NCBI RefSeq assembly: GCF_001083785.1
Contig: NZ_LAVL01000008.1
Coordinates: forward strand, 1-64,000
Direction of reading: 5' to 3'
From: Nonomuraea sp. SBT364
GTDB taxonomy: Bacteria > Actinomycetota > Actinomycetes > Streptosporangiales > Streptosporangiaceae
Length of the DNA: 64,000 bases
Shown here: positions 46,831-53,364 of the stretch, piece by piece
How positions within the stretch are numbered: position 1 is the first letter of the stretch
Layout of the letters: the number at the start of each line of letters is the position of its first letter
Translations under genes and position numbers: made by a program
The notes under the pieces: model-generated
Told to the model about the DNA's origin: nothing
Seen by the model: only the letters and a program-made list of their open reading frames with translations
Databases searched by the model: none

Positions 46831-48198
46831 ATGGCGAGAAAGCTCGGCCTCGTGCTCGTGTCGCTGGCGCTCACCGGCTGCTCCGCCTCCGGCCCGGCCG
46901 CCTCCCCTCCCGCCACGTCACCGCCCGTACCGTCGGCGTCCGTCACGTCGCCGCCCGCCACGCCAGCGCCTGTGCCGTCCGACGTGCCTCCGCCGGTCGC
47001 GGTCACCCCGGCCGTTTCGCCGCCCTCGCCGCCTCGGTGCGACGGTGAGGCGGAGCCCGGCGATCTGAACGGCGACGGGTATGCCGACCTCGCCTTCATC
47101 TGGAGGGGTGAGAAGGGCGAGCCGCTGGAGCGGAGTCAGCTCGTGGTGGTGCACGGATCGGCGCGCGGGCCCGACCCGTCCACGGCGCACGTCGCCGGTG
47201 CGGGCAGCATGTCCGGCGAGGTGGTCCCGCAGCTCGCGGATCTCGACGGCGACGGTTGCGCCGACGTCGTCATTCCGGACGGCACGCTGTCGATCTTCTG
47301 GAGCGGCCGGGGCCGGGCGACCGTTCTGCCGTACGGTCACAACTCCGGCGTGGCCGACCTCGACGGGGACGACGCGATCGACATCCTGACGGTCAGGTCG
47401 CCCGACGACGGGAGCACGGCCGGCTCCCGGCTCGTTCTCCTGCACGGTCCCTTCACCAGGTCCGGCGAACCGGCCCGCGAGACGAGCCGGCCGCTTCCCG
47501 AAGGCGAATGGCCCGGCCGGATGGTCACCGATCGGCACGGGTCCGGCGCCGTGCTGTACGGGCCCGACGACGGTGAGCAGGCGCCCGCCTGGCTCCTGAC
47601 CGGCGACGAGTTCCGTGAAGTGGGCAGGGGGAGCTCGGCCGTGTTCGGCGACTTCGACGGCGACGGACGCCGCGACGTGGCGATCGGCGACAGCGGGGCG
47701 CGCAACAACGAGCCCGGCTACGAGACGGAGGCCCCGTCGGTCGAGAGCATCACCCGCGTCTTCTACGGCCGTGACCGCGAACCGCAGGTGCTCACCGGTG
47801 TCCGGGGCAGCCTGGCCGCCGGTGACCTGAACGGCGACGGCCTGGACGACCTCGTCTCCGGCGAGGTCGTCGGCAAGACCGCCCGGATCACCGGCAAGGC
47901 GGAGATCCTCACCGGCTCCCCCGAGGGCCTGCGCCGCCCCGGCGTGTTCGCCACCCACCAGGGACCCGACCGGACTCCCGCCGGCAAGCGCCTCAAGGAG
48001 TGGCAGCGCGGCGCCGTGCAGACCTGGTCGATCGCCGACCACGACGGCGACGGCAAGGACGAGCTGCTCCGCGTCTGGCGCGGCGGCCTCGACCTCGCCC
48101 GCTTCTGGCGGCTCGACGCCGAGGGCGTGACCCGGCAGGTCTTCGACCTGGAAGCCATGGCCGGCCGGGGCAGTCAGGGCCCGGCGAGCCGGTGGTAG
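46831..48198 (+). CDS. FG-GAP/VCBS repeat lipoprotein
   Basis: Encodes 455 aa. Lipobox LTGC with Cys17 is followed by a Pro/Ser/Thr-rich linker of about 50 residues. At least five calcium-binding-like repeats follow (LNGDGYADLAF, LDGDGCADVVI, LDGDDAIDILT, FDGDGRRDVAI, LNGDGLDDLVS, HDGDGKDELLR), as in integrin-type beta-propellers. It is an outward-facing, membrane-anchored binding protein of unknown ligand. Its 3' end overlaps the flavin reductase gene tail to tail by 25 nt. Confidence 0.88.
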   Translation: MARKLGLVLVSLALTGCSASGPAASPPATSPPVPSASVTSPPATPAPVPSDVPPPVAVTPAVSPPSPPRCDGEAEPGDLNGDGYADLAFIWRGEKGEPLERSQLVVVHGSARGPDPSTAHVAGAGSMSGEVVPQLADLDGDGCADVVIPDGTLSIFWSGRGRATVLPYGHNSGVADLDGDDAIDILTVRSPDDGSTAGSRLVLLHGPFTRSGEPARETSRPLPEGEWPGRMVTDRHGSGAVLYGPDDGEQAPAWLLTGDEFREVGRGSSAVFGDFDGDGRRDVAIGDSGARNNEPGYETEAPSVESITRVFYGRDREPQVLTGVRGSLAAGDLNGDGLDDLVSGEVVGKTARITGKAEILTGSPEGLRRPGVFATHQGPDRTPAGKRLKEWQRGAVQTWSIADHDGDGKDELLRVWRGGLDLARFWRLDAEGVTRQVFDLEAMAGRGSQGPASRW

Positions 48199-48659
48199 GC
48201 GCGTCCGGCGTACACCAGCGGTTCCCCGGTGGCGCGCAGGTGGTGCACCTCCTCGACGCTGCCGAGGAAGAGCGTGTGGTCGGCGGCGGGCACGGTCCCG
48301 GTGACCGTGCAGTCCATCGCGGCCAGCGCGCCGGCCAGGACCGCGTTGCCGGAACGGGGGGAGGGCGACCATCCCACGCCGGTGAACTCGCTCTCCCCGA
48401 CGGGACGCTCCCCGGCGAAGTGCGCCGCCAGGGTGCTCTGGCCGGTGGCGAGCAGGTTGGCGGTGAAGCTCCGGTTCTCCATGATGAGCTGGTGGGTACG
48501 GCTGCGCCGGCTCAGGGACACCAGGAGCGTCGGCGGTTCCAGCGACACGGACAGGAGGCTGCTGATCGTGACGCCGTGCGGTCCCGTGGCGGACCGGGTG
48601 GTGACGACGGCGACGCCGGTGGGCCACTGCCGCATCACGGCCCGCATCCGGGTGCTCAC
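48174..48659 (-). CDS. Flavin reductase-like split-barrel protein
   Basis: Encodes 161 aa from GTG 48659, which overlaps the LLM oxidoreductase stop (GTGA). MRQWPTGVAVVTTRSATGPHGVTISSLLSVSLEPPTLLVSL is the characteristic N-terminus of the HpaC/FRP-like flavin reductases. ENRSFTANLLATGQ and CTVTGTVPAADHTLFLGSV follow. It should supply reduced FMN to the upstream luciferase-like enzyme. Together they would make a two-component monooxygenase. Confidence 0.9.
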   Translation of the reverse strand: MSTRMRAVMRQWPTGVAVVTTRSATGPHGVTISSLLSVSLEPPTLLVSLSRRSRTHQLIMENRSFTANLLATGQSTLAAHFAGERPVGESEFTGVGWSPSPRSGNAVLAGALAAMDCTVTGTVPAADHTLFLGSVEEVHHLRATGEPLVYAGRAYHRLAGP

Positions 48660-49621
48660 CACGCGGCTGCCTGGGGCGCGGCGGTCCCCAGGGCCGGGAA
48701 GTGGGGCAGCACCTCCTCGCCGAGCTGGGCGATGACCTCGCCGGCGGGCCGCCTGCCGTGCTGCACCCCCAGGGCGCCGTGGTTGACGCCGGCGTCCTGC
48801 CAGCGTCCGAGAAGTTCCAGCAGGCCCTGGGTCCCGGTACGCAGGACGAAGCCGCCGCGCAGCGGGGTGGGCGGGTGCAGCGGATCTTCGGCCAGGTCGA
48901 TCCATTCGTTGGTGGCCACCGGCTTGAACGCGCCCGAGGGGATCAGGCCGCGCCAGGCCGCCGCCTTCTTGCCCAGCGCGATCGGGCCGTCAGCCGTCGC
49001 GGTGGCGCCCGGGTAGATCAGCCACCCGTCGGCGTGCTCGGCGATCCACTCCAGAGGCTGCTGGGACGAGCCCGTCACCAGCAGCGGGATGTGCCCGTGC
49101 ACCGGTTTGGGAAGCAGCTCCACGCCGGACGCGGAGGGCCGGAGCAGGTCGCGGAAGGAGTCCACCGCGTCCCTGTATCGCCGGCCGCGGCCGTCGAAGT
49201 CGACACCGTAGGCGGGGAACTCGCTGGGCCGGTCGCCGGACGCGGCCCCGAGCACCAGGCGGCCTCCGGAGAGATGATCGATGGAGGCGGCCTGTTTGGC
49301 CAGGTCGATGGGATGCCGCAGGCTGAAGATCACGCTGCCCGTGGCCAGGGTGATCCGCGAGGTGTGCGCGGCCAGCCAGGTCAGCGCGGACCAGGGGTCG
49401 TACACCTGCCCGACGTCCCCGAAACTCGTGTCCGCCAGCGGGATGTCCCTGACCCATACGGCGGCGAAGCCCGCCCGTTCGGCCTCCTGGACCAGCGCGC
49501 TCTGCCCGCGCAACGCCGCCATGTCGCCGGTATAGGGCCACAACGGCAGGAACAGCCCGACCGTCAGCCGGCCGTGCGCGAACATGCGGTCGAAGCCGAC
49601 GTGGGCAGTTCGGTCACTCAT
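48656..49621 (-). CDS. Luciferase-like (LLM class) flavin-dependent oxidoreductase
   Basis: Encodes 321 aa from ATG 49621 (MSDRTAHVGFDRMFAHGRLT). TIM-barrel landmarks include AERAGFAAVWVRDIPL, TLATGSVIFSLRHPIDLAKQAASIDHLSGGRLVLGA and PLLVTGSSQQPLEWIAEHADGW. The GTGA overlap with a flavin reductase indicates a reduced-FMN-using monooxygenase; an F420-dependent role is the alternative. It is divergent from a TetR gene across a 22-bp perfect inverted repeat, so expression is probably induced by its substrate. Confidence 0.9.
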   Translation of the reverse strand: MSDRTAHVGFDRMFAHGRLTVGLFLPLWPYTGDMAALRGQSALVQEAERAGFAAVWVRDIPLADTSFGDVGQVYDPWSALTWLAAHTSRITLATGSVIFSLRHPIDLAKQAASIDHLSGGRLVLGAASGDRPSEFPAYGVDFDGRGRRYRDAVDSFRDLLRPSASGVELLPKPVHGHIPLLVTGSSQQPLEWIAEHADGWLIYPGATATADGPIALGKKAAAWRGLIPSGAFKPVATNEWIDLAEDPLHPPTPLRGGFVLRTGTQGLLELLGRWQDAGVNHGALGVQHGRRPAGEVIAQLGEEVLPHFPALGTAAPQAAAW

Positions 49622-49632
49622 GACGACCCTCT

Positions 49633-49688
49633 CTGGTTGGAACGTTCGATCCAGAGCATAGCCCGACTGGATCGAACGTTCCAACCAG
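49633..49688. promoter_or_regulatory. Large perfect inverted repeat, TetR double operator
   Basis: Two 22-bp arms (49633-49654 and 49667-49688) are perfect reverse complements around a 12-bp spacer. Each arm contains GGAACGTTCGATCC, itself nearly symmetric (TGGA-N8-TCCA) with the 8-bp palindrome GAACGTTC. This suggests two regulator dimers bound 34 bp apart, shared by the LLM and TetR genes. Confidence 0.8.
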
Positions 49689-49701
49689 GTAGGGTGAAGT
49701 C

Positions 49702-50289
49702 ATGGACTCCCGGGACACGCGCACGCGGATCGTGCGGGCCGCCGCCGAGCTGTTGCAGCGGCAGGGCTACGAGGGCGCCTCCGTCAAGCCCATCGCGAAG
49801 GCGGCCGGCGCCTCGGTCAGCTCGGTGTACCACTTCTTCCCCGGCGGCAAGCAGGAGCTCGCGGTCGAGGCCCTGCGCCACGGCGCCGCCGAGTACGCCG
49901 ACCTGCTGAGCGAGGGCATGGCCGCCAGCCCCGATCCGGCCGAAGGCGTCGCCGCCTGCGCCCACCTGATGGTGGCCTCGCTGAAGACCTCGTCCTGGGT
50001 CGACGGCTGCCCGGTGGCCGTCACGGCACTGGAGACCGTGGGGCGCGTGCCCGGTATCCAGCAGGCGGCCGAGGAAGCCCTCGCGCAGTGGCAGCGGCTC
50101 GTCAGCACCGCGATCCAGCGCTCGGGAGTCCCCGCGGACACGGCGGACGAGCTGGCCAGCACCATCATCAGCACCCTGGAGGGCGCCGAGCTGCTCAGCC
50201 GGGTCCGGCAGGACGACCTGCCGCTCCGGCGCGCGGCCACCCACCTGTCCCAGCTCGTCCGCTTCGCCGTCGCCGAGCACGTCCCCTGA
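49702..50289 (+). CDS. TetR family regulator (LmrA/YxaF type)
   Basis: Encodes 195 aa starting MDSRDTRTRIVRAAAELLQRQGYEG. The helix-turn-helix is ASVKPIAKAAGASVSSVYHFFPGGKQEL (about 27-54), with the FPGGK turn typical of the LmrA/YxaF group. The C-terminal domain has WVDGCPVAVTALE. It starts 13 nt after the double operator and is divergent from the LLM/flavin reductase operon, so it is very likely their repressor. Confidence 0.92.
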   Translation: MDSRDTRTRIVRAAAELLQRQGYEGASVKPIAKAAGASVSSVYHFFPGGKQELAVEALRHGAAEYADLLSEGMAASPDPAEGVAACAHLMVASLKTSSWVDGCPVAVTALETVGRVPGIQQAAEEALAQWQRLVSTAIQRSGVPADTADELASTIISTLEGAELLSRVRQDDLPLRRAATHLSQLVRFAVAEHVP

Positions 50290-51619: not shown

Positions 51620-52096
51620 TCAGCGGCGGGCGAGCCAGGCGCGGAACGGCTCCTGCGCGCCTTCGACGGGCAGGTGCAGGGGGGACAGCCGCCACTGCTC
51701 GACGGGGACGGCGAACAGGTCGTAGGCGGAGGCGTAGTCGAAGCCGGCGGCCGAGGCGGCGTGCCGGTCGGCGGCGAAGACGATCCGGCCGACGCCGGAC
51801 CACAGGGCGGTCACGTAGCAGAGCGGGCAGGGCTCTCCCGAGGCGAGCAGCGTGGCGCCGGCGACGGCGTGGGGCCCGTGCGCGCGGGCCGCCTCGCGCA
51901 GGGCGACGATCTCGGCGTGGGCGGTCGGGTCGCGGTGTGCCCTGACCCGGTTGACGCCCGAGCCGAGCACGGTCCCCGTGTCGTCCACGACGAGCCCGGC
52001 GAACGGGATGCCGCCGGCGTGTACCTCGGCGGTGGCCAGGGCGACGGTCCGGGTCAGGAGGTCGGCGAGCCAGGCGGGCTCGGTGGTGTTCCGCAT
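51620..52096 (-). CDS. Cytidine/guanine deaminase-like zinc enzyme
   Basis: Encodes 158 aa. Zinc motifs are THAEIVALREAA (His-Ala-Glu, with catalytic Glu) near residue 59 and EPCPLCYVTALWSGV (P-C-x2-C) near 90. The layout and length fit nucleoside deaminases such as guanine deaminase or TadA-like proteins. In an operon with two small multidrug transporters, a guanidine- or guanine-related role is worth considering, but the substrate is not shown by the sequence. It begins 6 nt before the SMR stop region. Confidence 0.87.
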   Translation of the reverse strand: MRNTTEPAWLADLLTRTVALATAEVHAGGIPFAGLVVDDTGTVLGSGVNRVRAHRDPTAHAEIVALREAARAHGPHAVAGATLLASGEPCPLCYVTALWSGVGRIVFAADRHAASAAGFDYASAYDLFAVPVEQWRLSPLHLPVEGAQEPFRAWLARR

Positions 52097-52102
52097 CGTG
52101 GA

Positions 52103-52423
52103 TCAGATCCCGGCGGCGATCTTGAGGAGGGCGACCCCGCCGATGATCGCGGCGAACGAGCCGAGCTTGGCAGGAGTGATCTTCTCCTTGTAGACGAGGG
52201 CGCCGAGGATGACGGTGCCGATGGAGCCCACGCCGGTCCAGATGGTGTAGCCGACGCCGACGTCCAGCGTCTTGAGCGCCAGGCTCAGGGTGAAGATGCC
52301 GCCGGCGGCCGACAACAGTGTGAAGACCGACGGCCAGAGCCTGGTGAAGCCCTTGGTGGCGTTGGTGCCGAGGGCGAAGCCGATCTCGAAGACGATCGCG
52401 ATGGAGAGGTAGATCCAGGCCAT
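52103..52423 (-). CDS. SMR family transporter subunit
   Basis: Encodes 106 aa with four membrane helices. E13 in AIVFEIGFAL is the proton/cation-binding Glu of EmrE-like proteins. GFTRLWPS and GYTIWTGVGSIGTVILG are family signatures. With the similar gene at 52453 it likely forms a heterodimeric pair, as in YkkCD or EbrAB. Substrates may be quaternary cations or guanidinium; the sequence mixes EmrE- and SugE/Gdx-like traits. Confidence 0.93.
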   Translation of the reverse strand: MAWIYLSIAIVFEIGFALGTNATKGFTRLWPSVFTLLSAAGGIFTLSLALKTLDVGVGYTIWTGVGSIGTVILGALVYKEKITPAKLGSFAAIIGGVALLKIAAGI

Positions 52424-52452
52424 GATGACGTTCCTTCGGGTAGTGGTGGTGG

Positions 52453-52797
52453 TCAGGCGGCGGACGGCGTGCCCGCGGACGCGCGGTCGGAGAGCTTGAG
52501 CCCGAGCACGCCGCCGATGATCAGGACGAAGGCCAGCGCCTTCCAGAGGTTGATCTCCTCACCGAAGATCAGCGTGCCGAGCACGACCGTGCCGACAGAT
52601 CCGATGCCGGTCCAGATGGTGTAGCCGACGCCGACGTCCAGCGTCTTGAGCGCGAGGCTCAGGAAGAAGATCCCGGTGGCCGCCGCGCCCGCCGTGAGCA
52701 ACGACGGCCACAGCTGGGTGAAGCCCTCGGTGGCGTTGGTGGCCAGAGCGAAGATCACTTCGAACACGGCTGCGATGAGCAGGTAGATCCAGGCCAT
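52453..52797 (-). CDS. SMR family transporter subunit
   Basis: Encodes 114 aa with four membrane helices and the conserved E13 (AAVFEVIFAL). It is closely related to the adjacent SMR gene (shared FLSLALKTLDVGVGYTIWTG-like core) but has a longer C-terminal tail. It is first gene of an operon of four (SMR, SMR, deaminase, DsbA-like), facing a MarR gene across two palindromic boxes. Confidence 0.93.
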   Translation of the reverse strand: MAWIYLLIAAVFEVIFALATNATEGFTQLWPSLLTAGAAATGIFFLSLALKTLDVGVGYTIWTGIGSVGTVVLGTLIFGEEINLWKALAFVLIIGGVLGLKLSDRASAGTPSAA

Positions 52798-52810: not shown

Positions 52811-52859
52811 TTGTATGTACGTGCAAGTAGTGATGGAAGGATGTTGCATGTACATGTAT
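52811..52859. promoter_or_regulatory. Two MarR-type boxes centred on GTAC
   Basis: TTGTATGTACGTGCAA (52811-52826) and TTGCATGTACATGTAT (52844-52859) share TTGyATGTAC and are each imperfectly symmetric. Their centres are 33 bp apart, about three helical turns. They span the SMR-operon/MarR divergent promoters. Confidence 0.7.
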
Positions 52860-52896
52860 GCTTCTGTCAAGCCGGTCTCAAGGACGAAGAGGTTCC

Positions 52897-53364
52897 ATGG
52901 CTCCCACCGCACCCGCCCCGCCCGCGTCCGACCTCGCCGCCGCCTGGCAGCAGGTTCTCCTGCTGCACGCCCACGTCGAGAACAAACTCGCCGCCGCGCT
53001 GCAACGAAAGCACGGCATCGGCCTGTCGGAGTTCCGCGCCCTCGGCCACCTCGCCGCCTCCCCCACCGGCGAGTTGCGCATGCAGGAACTGGCCGACAAG
53101 GTCGGGCTCAACCAGAGCTCGGTCACCCGCCTGGTGGCACGGCTGAACGCCGCCGACTTCGCCTACCGCGATCTGTGCCCCGACGACAAGCGCGGCGTCT
53201 ACACCGTCATCACCGAGACGGGCCGGACCAGGCACGCCGAGGCGAGCCGGAGCTACGACGAGACGCTGGCGGCCGCCCTGGAGGAAGCGGGACGGGCCGA
53301 CCCCCAACTCGCCACGGCCCTCGCGATGCTGGTCACCGGACGCCGGACGGCCGAACATGGATAA
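52897..53364 (+). CDS. MarR family regulator
   Basis: Encodes 155 aa from ATG 52897 (GAAGAGG upstream). The winged helix reads LSEFRALGHLAASPTGELRMQELADKVGLNQSSVTRLVARLNAADFAYRDLCPDDKRGVY (about 41-100), with the DDKRG wing characteristic of the family. It is divergent from the paired-SMR operon and probably represses it and itself through the GTAC boxes. Confidence 0.92.
   Translation: MAPTAPAPPASDLAAAWQQVLLLHAHVENKLAAALQRKHGIGLSEFRALGHLAASPTGELRMQELADKVGLNQSSVTRLVARLNAADFAYRDLCPDDKRGVYTVITETGRTRHAEASRSYDETLAAALEEAGRADPQLATALAMLVTGRRTAEHG

Follow-up and report, generated by a model that had tools for sequence, protein, structure and literature searches.

Regulators of the LmrA/YxaF type, a subfamily of the TetR proteins, are released from DNA by a small ligand; in Bacillus subtilis, flavonoids have this effect. 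According to the available portion of the report on QdoR (YxaF), this protein represses its own gene, and two operators lie at the qdoI promoter [PMC8481877]. The accessible text on CprB describes a 22-bp site that is bound by a dimer of dimers [PMC4150764]. A literature search for divergent genes encoding a TetR protein, a luciferase-like monooxygenase (LLM), and a flavin reductase, together with an inverted repeat, found no report, and when the operator strings themselves were searched for in the literature, the only match was an unrelated paper on a Salmonella assay. In the part of an article from the imine reductase context that was available, the one mention of TetR that refers to a gene concerns a plasmid repressor [PMC6120462].

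The locus considered here lies in a window of 64,000 nucleotides (the whole stretch of DNA that was analysed) from Nonomuraea sp. SBT364. On the plus strand, positions 49702..50289 encode an LmrA/YxaF-like TetR-family regulator of 195 amino acids, with a TetR_N helix-turn-helix (PF00440, 48 bits, cut-off 24) and the PF21993 C-terminal domain (104 bits, cut-off 27); the solved structure nearest to it by sequence is YxaF (1sgm, E 3.7e-24). Divergent from it, on the minus strand, are the gene for a 321-aa LLM of the TIGR03571 family (48656..49621; 359 bits, cut-off 303.9) and a flavin reductase gene (48174..48659; PF01613, 156 bits), whose start overlaps the LLM stop. A sequence-only reading of this DNA had named the divergent genes as LLM and TetR, and both identities are right. 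The LLM and flavin reductase genes are likely to form one operon for a two-component monooxygenase, with the reductase presumed to be the source of reduced flavin for the LLM. Convergent with the reductase gene is a plus-strand gene for an FG-GAP repeat protein (46831-48198; PF01839, PF13517), and the 3' ends of the two overlap. On the other side of tetR, the minus strand (52103-52797) carries two adjoining genes for small multidrug resistance proteins of 106 and 114 aa (PF00893), which look like a paired-SMR efflux unit; next to them is a deaminase-like gene (51620-52096; PF00383), and the gene for a MarR regulator (52858-53364) lies opposite.

Between the divergent genes lie two arms, CTGGTTGGAACGTTCGATCCAG (49633-49654) and CTGGATCGAACGTTCCAACCAG (49667-49688), which are separated by a 12-bp spacer and are complementary at 22/22 positions. 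Among the perfect inverted repeats of the window whose loop does not exceed 40, this one is the longest (the runner-up has 13 bp). The longest arms in 60 first-order Markov surrogates averaged 12.1 and did not exceed 15. The earlier description of perfect 22-bp arms around 12 bp is thus confirmed. With two mismatches allowed, the arms reach 29 nt (49626-49654 and 49667-49695). Each arm also matches its own reverse complement at 18/22 positions, the near-symmetry that had been noted before; consequently, the arms agree at 18/22 as direct copies too, and their "inverted" status hangs on four positions only. The right description is thus one near-palindrome, present in two copies that face opposite ways. 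Inside each 22-mer is a 16-bp core, TNGANCGNNCGNTCNA (49638..49653 and 49668..49683, assigned to neither strand), which is matched at 10/10 specified positions in both; the separation of 34 bp given previously is correct for the 22-mers, while the centres of the cores are separated by 30 bp.

Very probably, judging from the protein family and from comparison with relatives, the repeat represents two opposed operator copies of the adjacent LmrA/YxaF-like TetR, such that one occupied region would shut both divergent promoters. Operator 1 (arm 1, 22 bp, 49633..49654, minus strand) faces the LLM gene and would cover the point where transcription of the LLM operon presumably begins. Operator 2 (arm 2, 22 bp, 49667..49688, plus strand) would lie over the presumed LLM -35 and immediately upstream of the -10 presumed for tetR. 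When ligand is absent, TetR dimers would block the LLM-flavin reductase operon as well as their own leaderless gene; binding of a small molecule, which may be a monooxygenase substrate, would free the dimers from the operators. In this scheme, we infer the promoters, the binding, the repression, and the ligand, and TetR might instead activate one of the two promoters. What has been computed is the presence of two operator copies, their conservation, their linkage with the recognition helix, and the lack of a convincing other site in the genome.

Conservation was followed through 132 loci among the matches listed: 35 from the genome itself (the window TetR and five paralogs) and from relatives, for which 118 genomes were searched; 12 from 394 genomes of the class; 80 from a contig scan (which holds at least that number); and five from 392 genomes of the genus to which G460 belongs. 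Each locus was classed by comparing its divergent gene with the window LLM and with the imine reductase (IRED) of a paralog. This gave 98 IRED-linked loci (PF21761/PF03446, imine reductase/reductive aminase), 16 LLM-linked loci, and 18 others, or 93, 15, and 18, respectively, after six near-duplicates were dropped; loci in two genomes of the same genus (G033 and G046) are near-identical to those of N. endophytica and N. solani. An operator matrix was then built from IRED-linked sites, with the LLM-linked loci kept out of its building, and was used at a threshold of 4 bits; 396 shuffled upstream regions gave at most 3.7 bits. A pair of sites is found upstream of TetR in 98/98 IRED-linked loci, a count that holds partly by construction because the matrix comes from those loci. 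The copies are direct in 95, and the remaining three, which depend on weak second sites, show two opposed orders. Among the LLM-linked loci, 12 of the 16 have matrix pairs (ten inverted as in the window, two direct), and the four with fewer than two matrix matches show two sites each by eye (inverted pairs in L142 and L143, direct ones in L058 and L059). The 18 other loci yield four direct pairs and one inverted pair, with 13 lacking a pair. The sites of the relatives have the core TNGANCGNNCGNTCNA in common, and conserved near-palindromic sites lie between the regulator and its divergent target. Two LLM-linked loci of Saccharopolyspora (L065 and L073) have three direct operator copies, and these precede the tetR match by ~60-130 bp.

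A tree of 66 TetRs, made by a quick method and containing 15/15 of the non-redundant LLM-linked, 35/93 of the IRED-linked, and 16/18 of the other proteins, places the window TetR in a branch of eight LLM-linked TetRs (SH-aLRT 99) from its own genus, Actinomadura, and Streptomyces. The IRED-linked rows and nine of the "other" rows share one branch, also with a support of 99. On this tree, LLM versus IRED changes once, and operator orientation changes twice. Within the eight-member clade (closest pair left out), mean pairwise identity is 0.94 for arm 1 and 0.95 for arm 2, versus 0.29 in the 20 bp to the left of arm 1, 0.31 in the inner spacer beside arm 2, and 0.34 and 0.38 to the right. The sole other conserved block is six bases beside arm 1 (0.81 pairwise), the position of the presumed minus-strand -10 hexamer, which reads TATAGT or TATGCT in seven of the eight members and TATGGT in L061. 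The earlier proposal of a double TetR operator is thus supported: the arms alone are conserved in distant relatives, almost every close relative of this TetR has two copies upstream, and changes in helix and operator are linked. Four of the eight members have perfectly matching arms, whereas those of L140 differ by three mismatches. In L141 the two arms have undergone an identical substitution, and L055 shows one such shared change; either selection or repeat-templated correction could lie behind this. To the left of operator 1, L061 carries an extra partial copy, CTGGTTGGAACT, which looks like a duplication of the outer half.

The conserved hexamer supplies the presumed -10 of the LLM operon (TATGCT, 49655..49660, minus strand), and a candidate -35, TTGGAA (49679-49684, minus strand), can be read 18 bp from it. 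The presumed tetR -10, TAGGGT (49690..49695, plus strand), which has a layout that recurs in relatives, is only 6 nt before the ATG at 49702, and consequently the tetR mRNA is probably leaderless; the candidate tetR -35 is weak. A minus-strand TANNNT is present between the sites in 93/93 IRED-linked loci and in 11/12 LLM-linked pairs, compared with 16% and 24% of shuffled spacers. A TANNNT that immediately follows operator 2 (offset 0-3) and precedes an in-frame start codon by 6-8 nt is found in 49/93 IRED-linked and 9/12 LLM-linked loci; in the other 44 and 3, respectively, this layout is not at that place. Because a sigma-70 consensus scan of the locus reports no promoter, it is from conservation that we infer both the LLM and the tetR promoters.

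The repeat might also act through its structure, as a DNA cruciform or an mRNA hairpin, both of which had been suggested earlier, or as a terminator. The repeat strand does fold strongly (-30.9 kcal/mol, z -9.35, with 0/200 shuffles as good), but any perfect inverted repeat must fold in this way. Furthermore, the sites of 95 of the 98 IRED-linked relatives are kept in direct orientation, in which no such pairing can form, and the presumed start sites leave neither transcript with both arms. A search for an intrinsic terminator (a GC-rich hairpin with a T-run) found none in 49500-49800, and no Rfam family matches within the window. Given the direct copies, the missing T-run, and transcripts that would not hold both arms, a role as cruciform, hairpin or terminator is extremely improbable.

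Another suggestion was that dimers on the two arms bind cooperatively or loop the DNA. If so, the arms would be one unit, with symmetry and spacing selected for contact between TetR dimers. In keeping with this, nine of the ten inverted LLM-linked 22-mer pairs are spaced by 33-36 bp (33 in one, 34 in four, 35 in two, 36 in two) and the tenth by 41, which makes a local interaction possible at those loci; the near-identity of the arms, with no mismatches in half of the clade and the shared changes in L141 and L055, points the same way. However, in 90 non-redundant direct pairs, the spacing ranges from 35 to 49 bp and peaks twice, at 41 and at 47, about half a turn apart, and there is no helical phase (Rayleigh R of 0.08, 0.14, and 0.05 for periods of 10.5, 10.0, and 11.0 bp, with relatedness uncorrected). 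In addition, the Pseudonocardiaceae LLM-linked loci have direct copies, three of them in two of these loci, and the geometry of the -10 and -35 alone may fix the narrow spacing. Since the direct-copy relatives vary so widely and without phase, looping or phase-dependent cooperation is unsupported, and contact between the arms as a selected feature is unlikely.

A different question is how each operator would be filled. In QacR- or CprB-like fashion, each 22-bp arm may take two overlapping dimers on opposite faces, with dyads offset by ~4 bp about the GAACGTTC centre, and the region would then hold four dimers. Several observations fit this idea: the dyad centres of the 16-bp core and the 22-mer differ; positions 18-22, outside the core, are also conserved in operator 1 of the IRED-linked loci (A21 in 94%, G22 in 96%); several LLM-linked loci, including the present one, have core-like matches at 8/10 positions 4 bp beside the main core; and a site of the same length is filled in this way by CprB. 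On the other hand, the second dyad is imperfect, promoter elements overlap the positions beside operator 2, and any stoichiometry per site in the LmrA/YxaF-like subfamily is putative. Four dimers thus seem a plausible arrangement, a little less probable than even, and one that is compatible with the double-operator explanation.

The assignment of the sites to this TetR was considered against the whole genome. A scan, proposed earlier as a way to define the regulon, gave no convincing further site, and consequently control looks local. In the 10-Mb genome, TNGAACGTTCNA occurs at four places, namely the two arms and two coding frames (L009 and L012). With up to three mismatches, the 22-mer is found at the two arms, at one site of the IRED-linked paralog, and on contigs C155 (in a coding frame) and C142. 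The motif TRGANCGNNCGNTCYA has nine genomic places versus 14 for the reversed control, indicating that single cores are not above chance. The genome does encode TetR paralogs with related operators, the closest of which (C263) is 50% identical, and one might therefore suppose that a regulator other than the adjacent TetR uses the sites. However, the sites adjoin this TetR in every clade member, the TetR helix differs where the sites differ, and the paralog's own sites have the form TAAA/TAGA...TCTA, all of which makes another regulator very unlikely. Elsewhere in the genome (C353:31384-31399; L152, ~1480-1540), an operator-like core of TAGA...TCTA type, TAGACCGAACGTTCTA, lies just upstream of a 133-aa frame and is possibly the site of another YxaF-like paralog.

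The adjacent TetR and its two operators also vary together. Residues 38-40, presumably the base-contacting start of TetR helix 3, are SPS or SVS in 8/8 clade members, whereas they are TLG (92) or TFG (1) in the 93 IRED-linked proteins and T-x-G in the seven other LLM-linked ones. Operator positions 3/16 are G-C in 16/16 clade sites; among 186 IRED-linked sites they are A-T in 159, G-T in 25, A-C in 1, and T-T in 1, and G3-C16 is never seen. Thus, S-P/V-S goes with TGGA..TCCA and T-L-G with TAGA..TCTA. Two A-L-S TetRs (L020 and L068) group together as a separate pair within the IRED-side branch, and each has G3-C16 at one of its two sites. Consequently, Ser40 and C16 coincide on two separate branches, wholly in one and half in the other, and the association of helix and operator stands on just these two branches, with one of two sites changed in the second; C16 without Ser40 occurs at one IRED-linked site. 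A compensatory change at positions 3/16 had been considered as proof of the core dyad, but this argument is weakened because 25 of the 186 IRED-linked sites are G3-T16.

Taken together, these results lead to a further hypothesis, which is put forward tentatively and is rather more doubtful than not. In this model, one branch switched its operator letters (from TAGA...TCTA to TGGA...TCCA), residues 38-40 (from T-L-G to S-P/V-S), operator orientation (direct versus inverted), and target (imine reductase versus LLM oxygenase), while the frame of two operators and two promoters was kept; the second branch, with A-L-S, would have made part of the switch independently, and each arm would hold a dimer of dimers. 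If true, these branches would document, letter by letter, how a repressor changes its specificity in nature, and they offer a useful lead on such a switch in this TetR subfamily. The region itself is a real, well-conserved control region that is ordinary in kind, and the general picture of how TetR switches function is unchanged. The locus provides a defined candidate operator and a testable protein-DNA code for actinomycete regulators that lie beside imine reductases and flavin-dependent oxygenases. These enzymes are of biocatalytic interest, and their regulators are thus candidates for ready-made sensors.

Among known systems, B. subtilis LmrA/YxaF (QdoR) belongs to the same TetR subfamily by PF21993 and includes the structure nearest to the window protein. 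As far as the available portion of the QdoR report goes, the two share the use of two operators and, as a model, autorepression; this likeness concerns the protein and the operator count. The same portion indicates that QdoR has two operators for one promoter, one at qdoR, and a quercetin dioxygenase as target, whereas the present locus has two copies that separate divergent genes, with an LLM-flavin reductase operon as presumed target. The QacR and CprB operators are alike in length (22 bp for CprB) and in their quasi-overlapping dyads; however, the window TetR scores 57 bits against the ScbR family model, far under the cut-off of 150, and a like stoichiometry here is putative. The IRED-linked YxaF-like systems of actinomycetes are similar in that the TetR is ~50% identical, two operators flank a divergent -10, and tetR is often leaderless, but they differ in having direct sites, a TAGA...TCTA core, a spacing of 35-49, a T-L-G helix, and a divergent gene of the PF21761 type.
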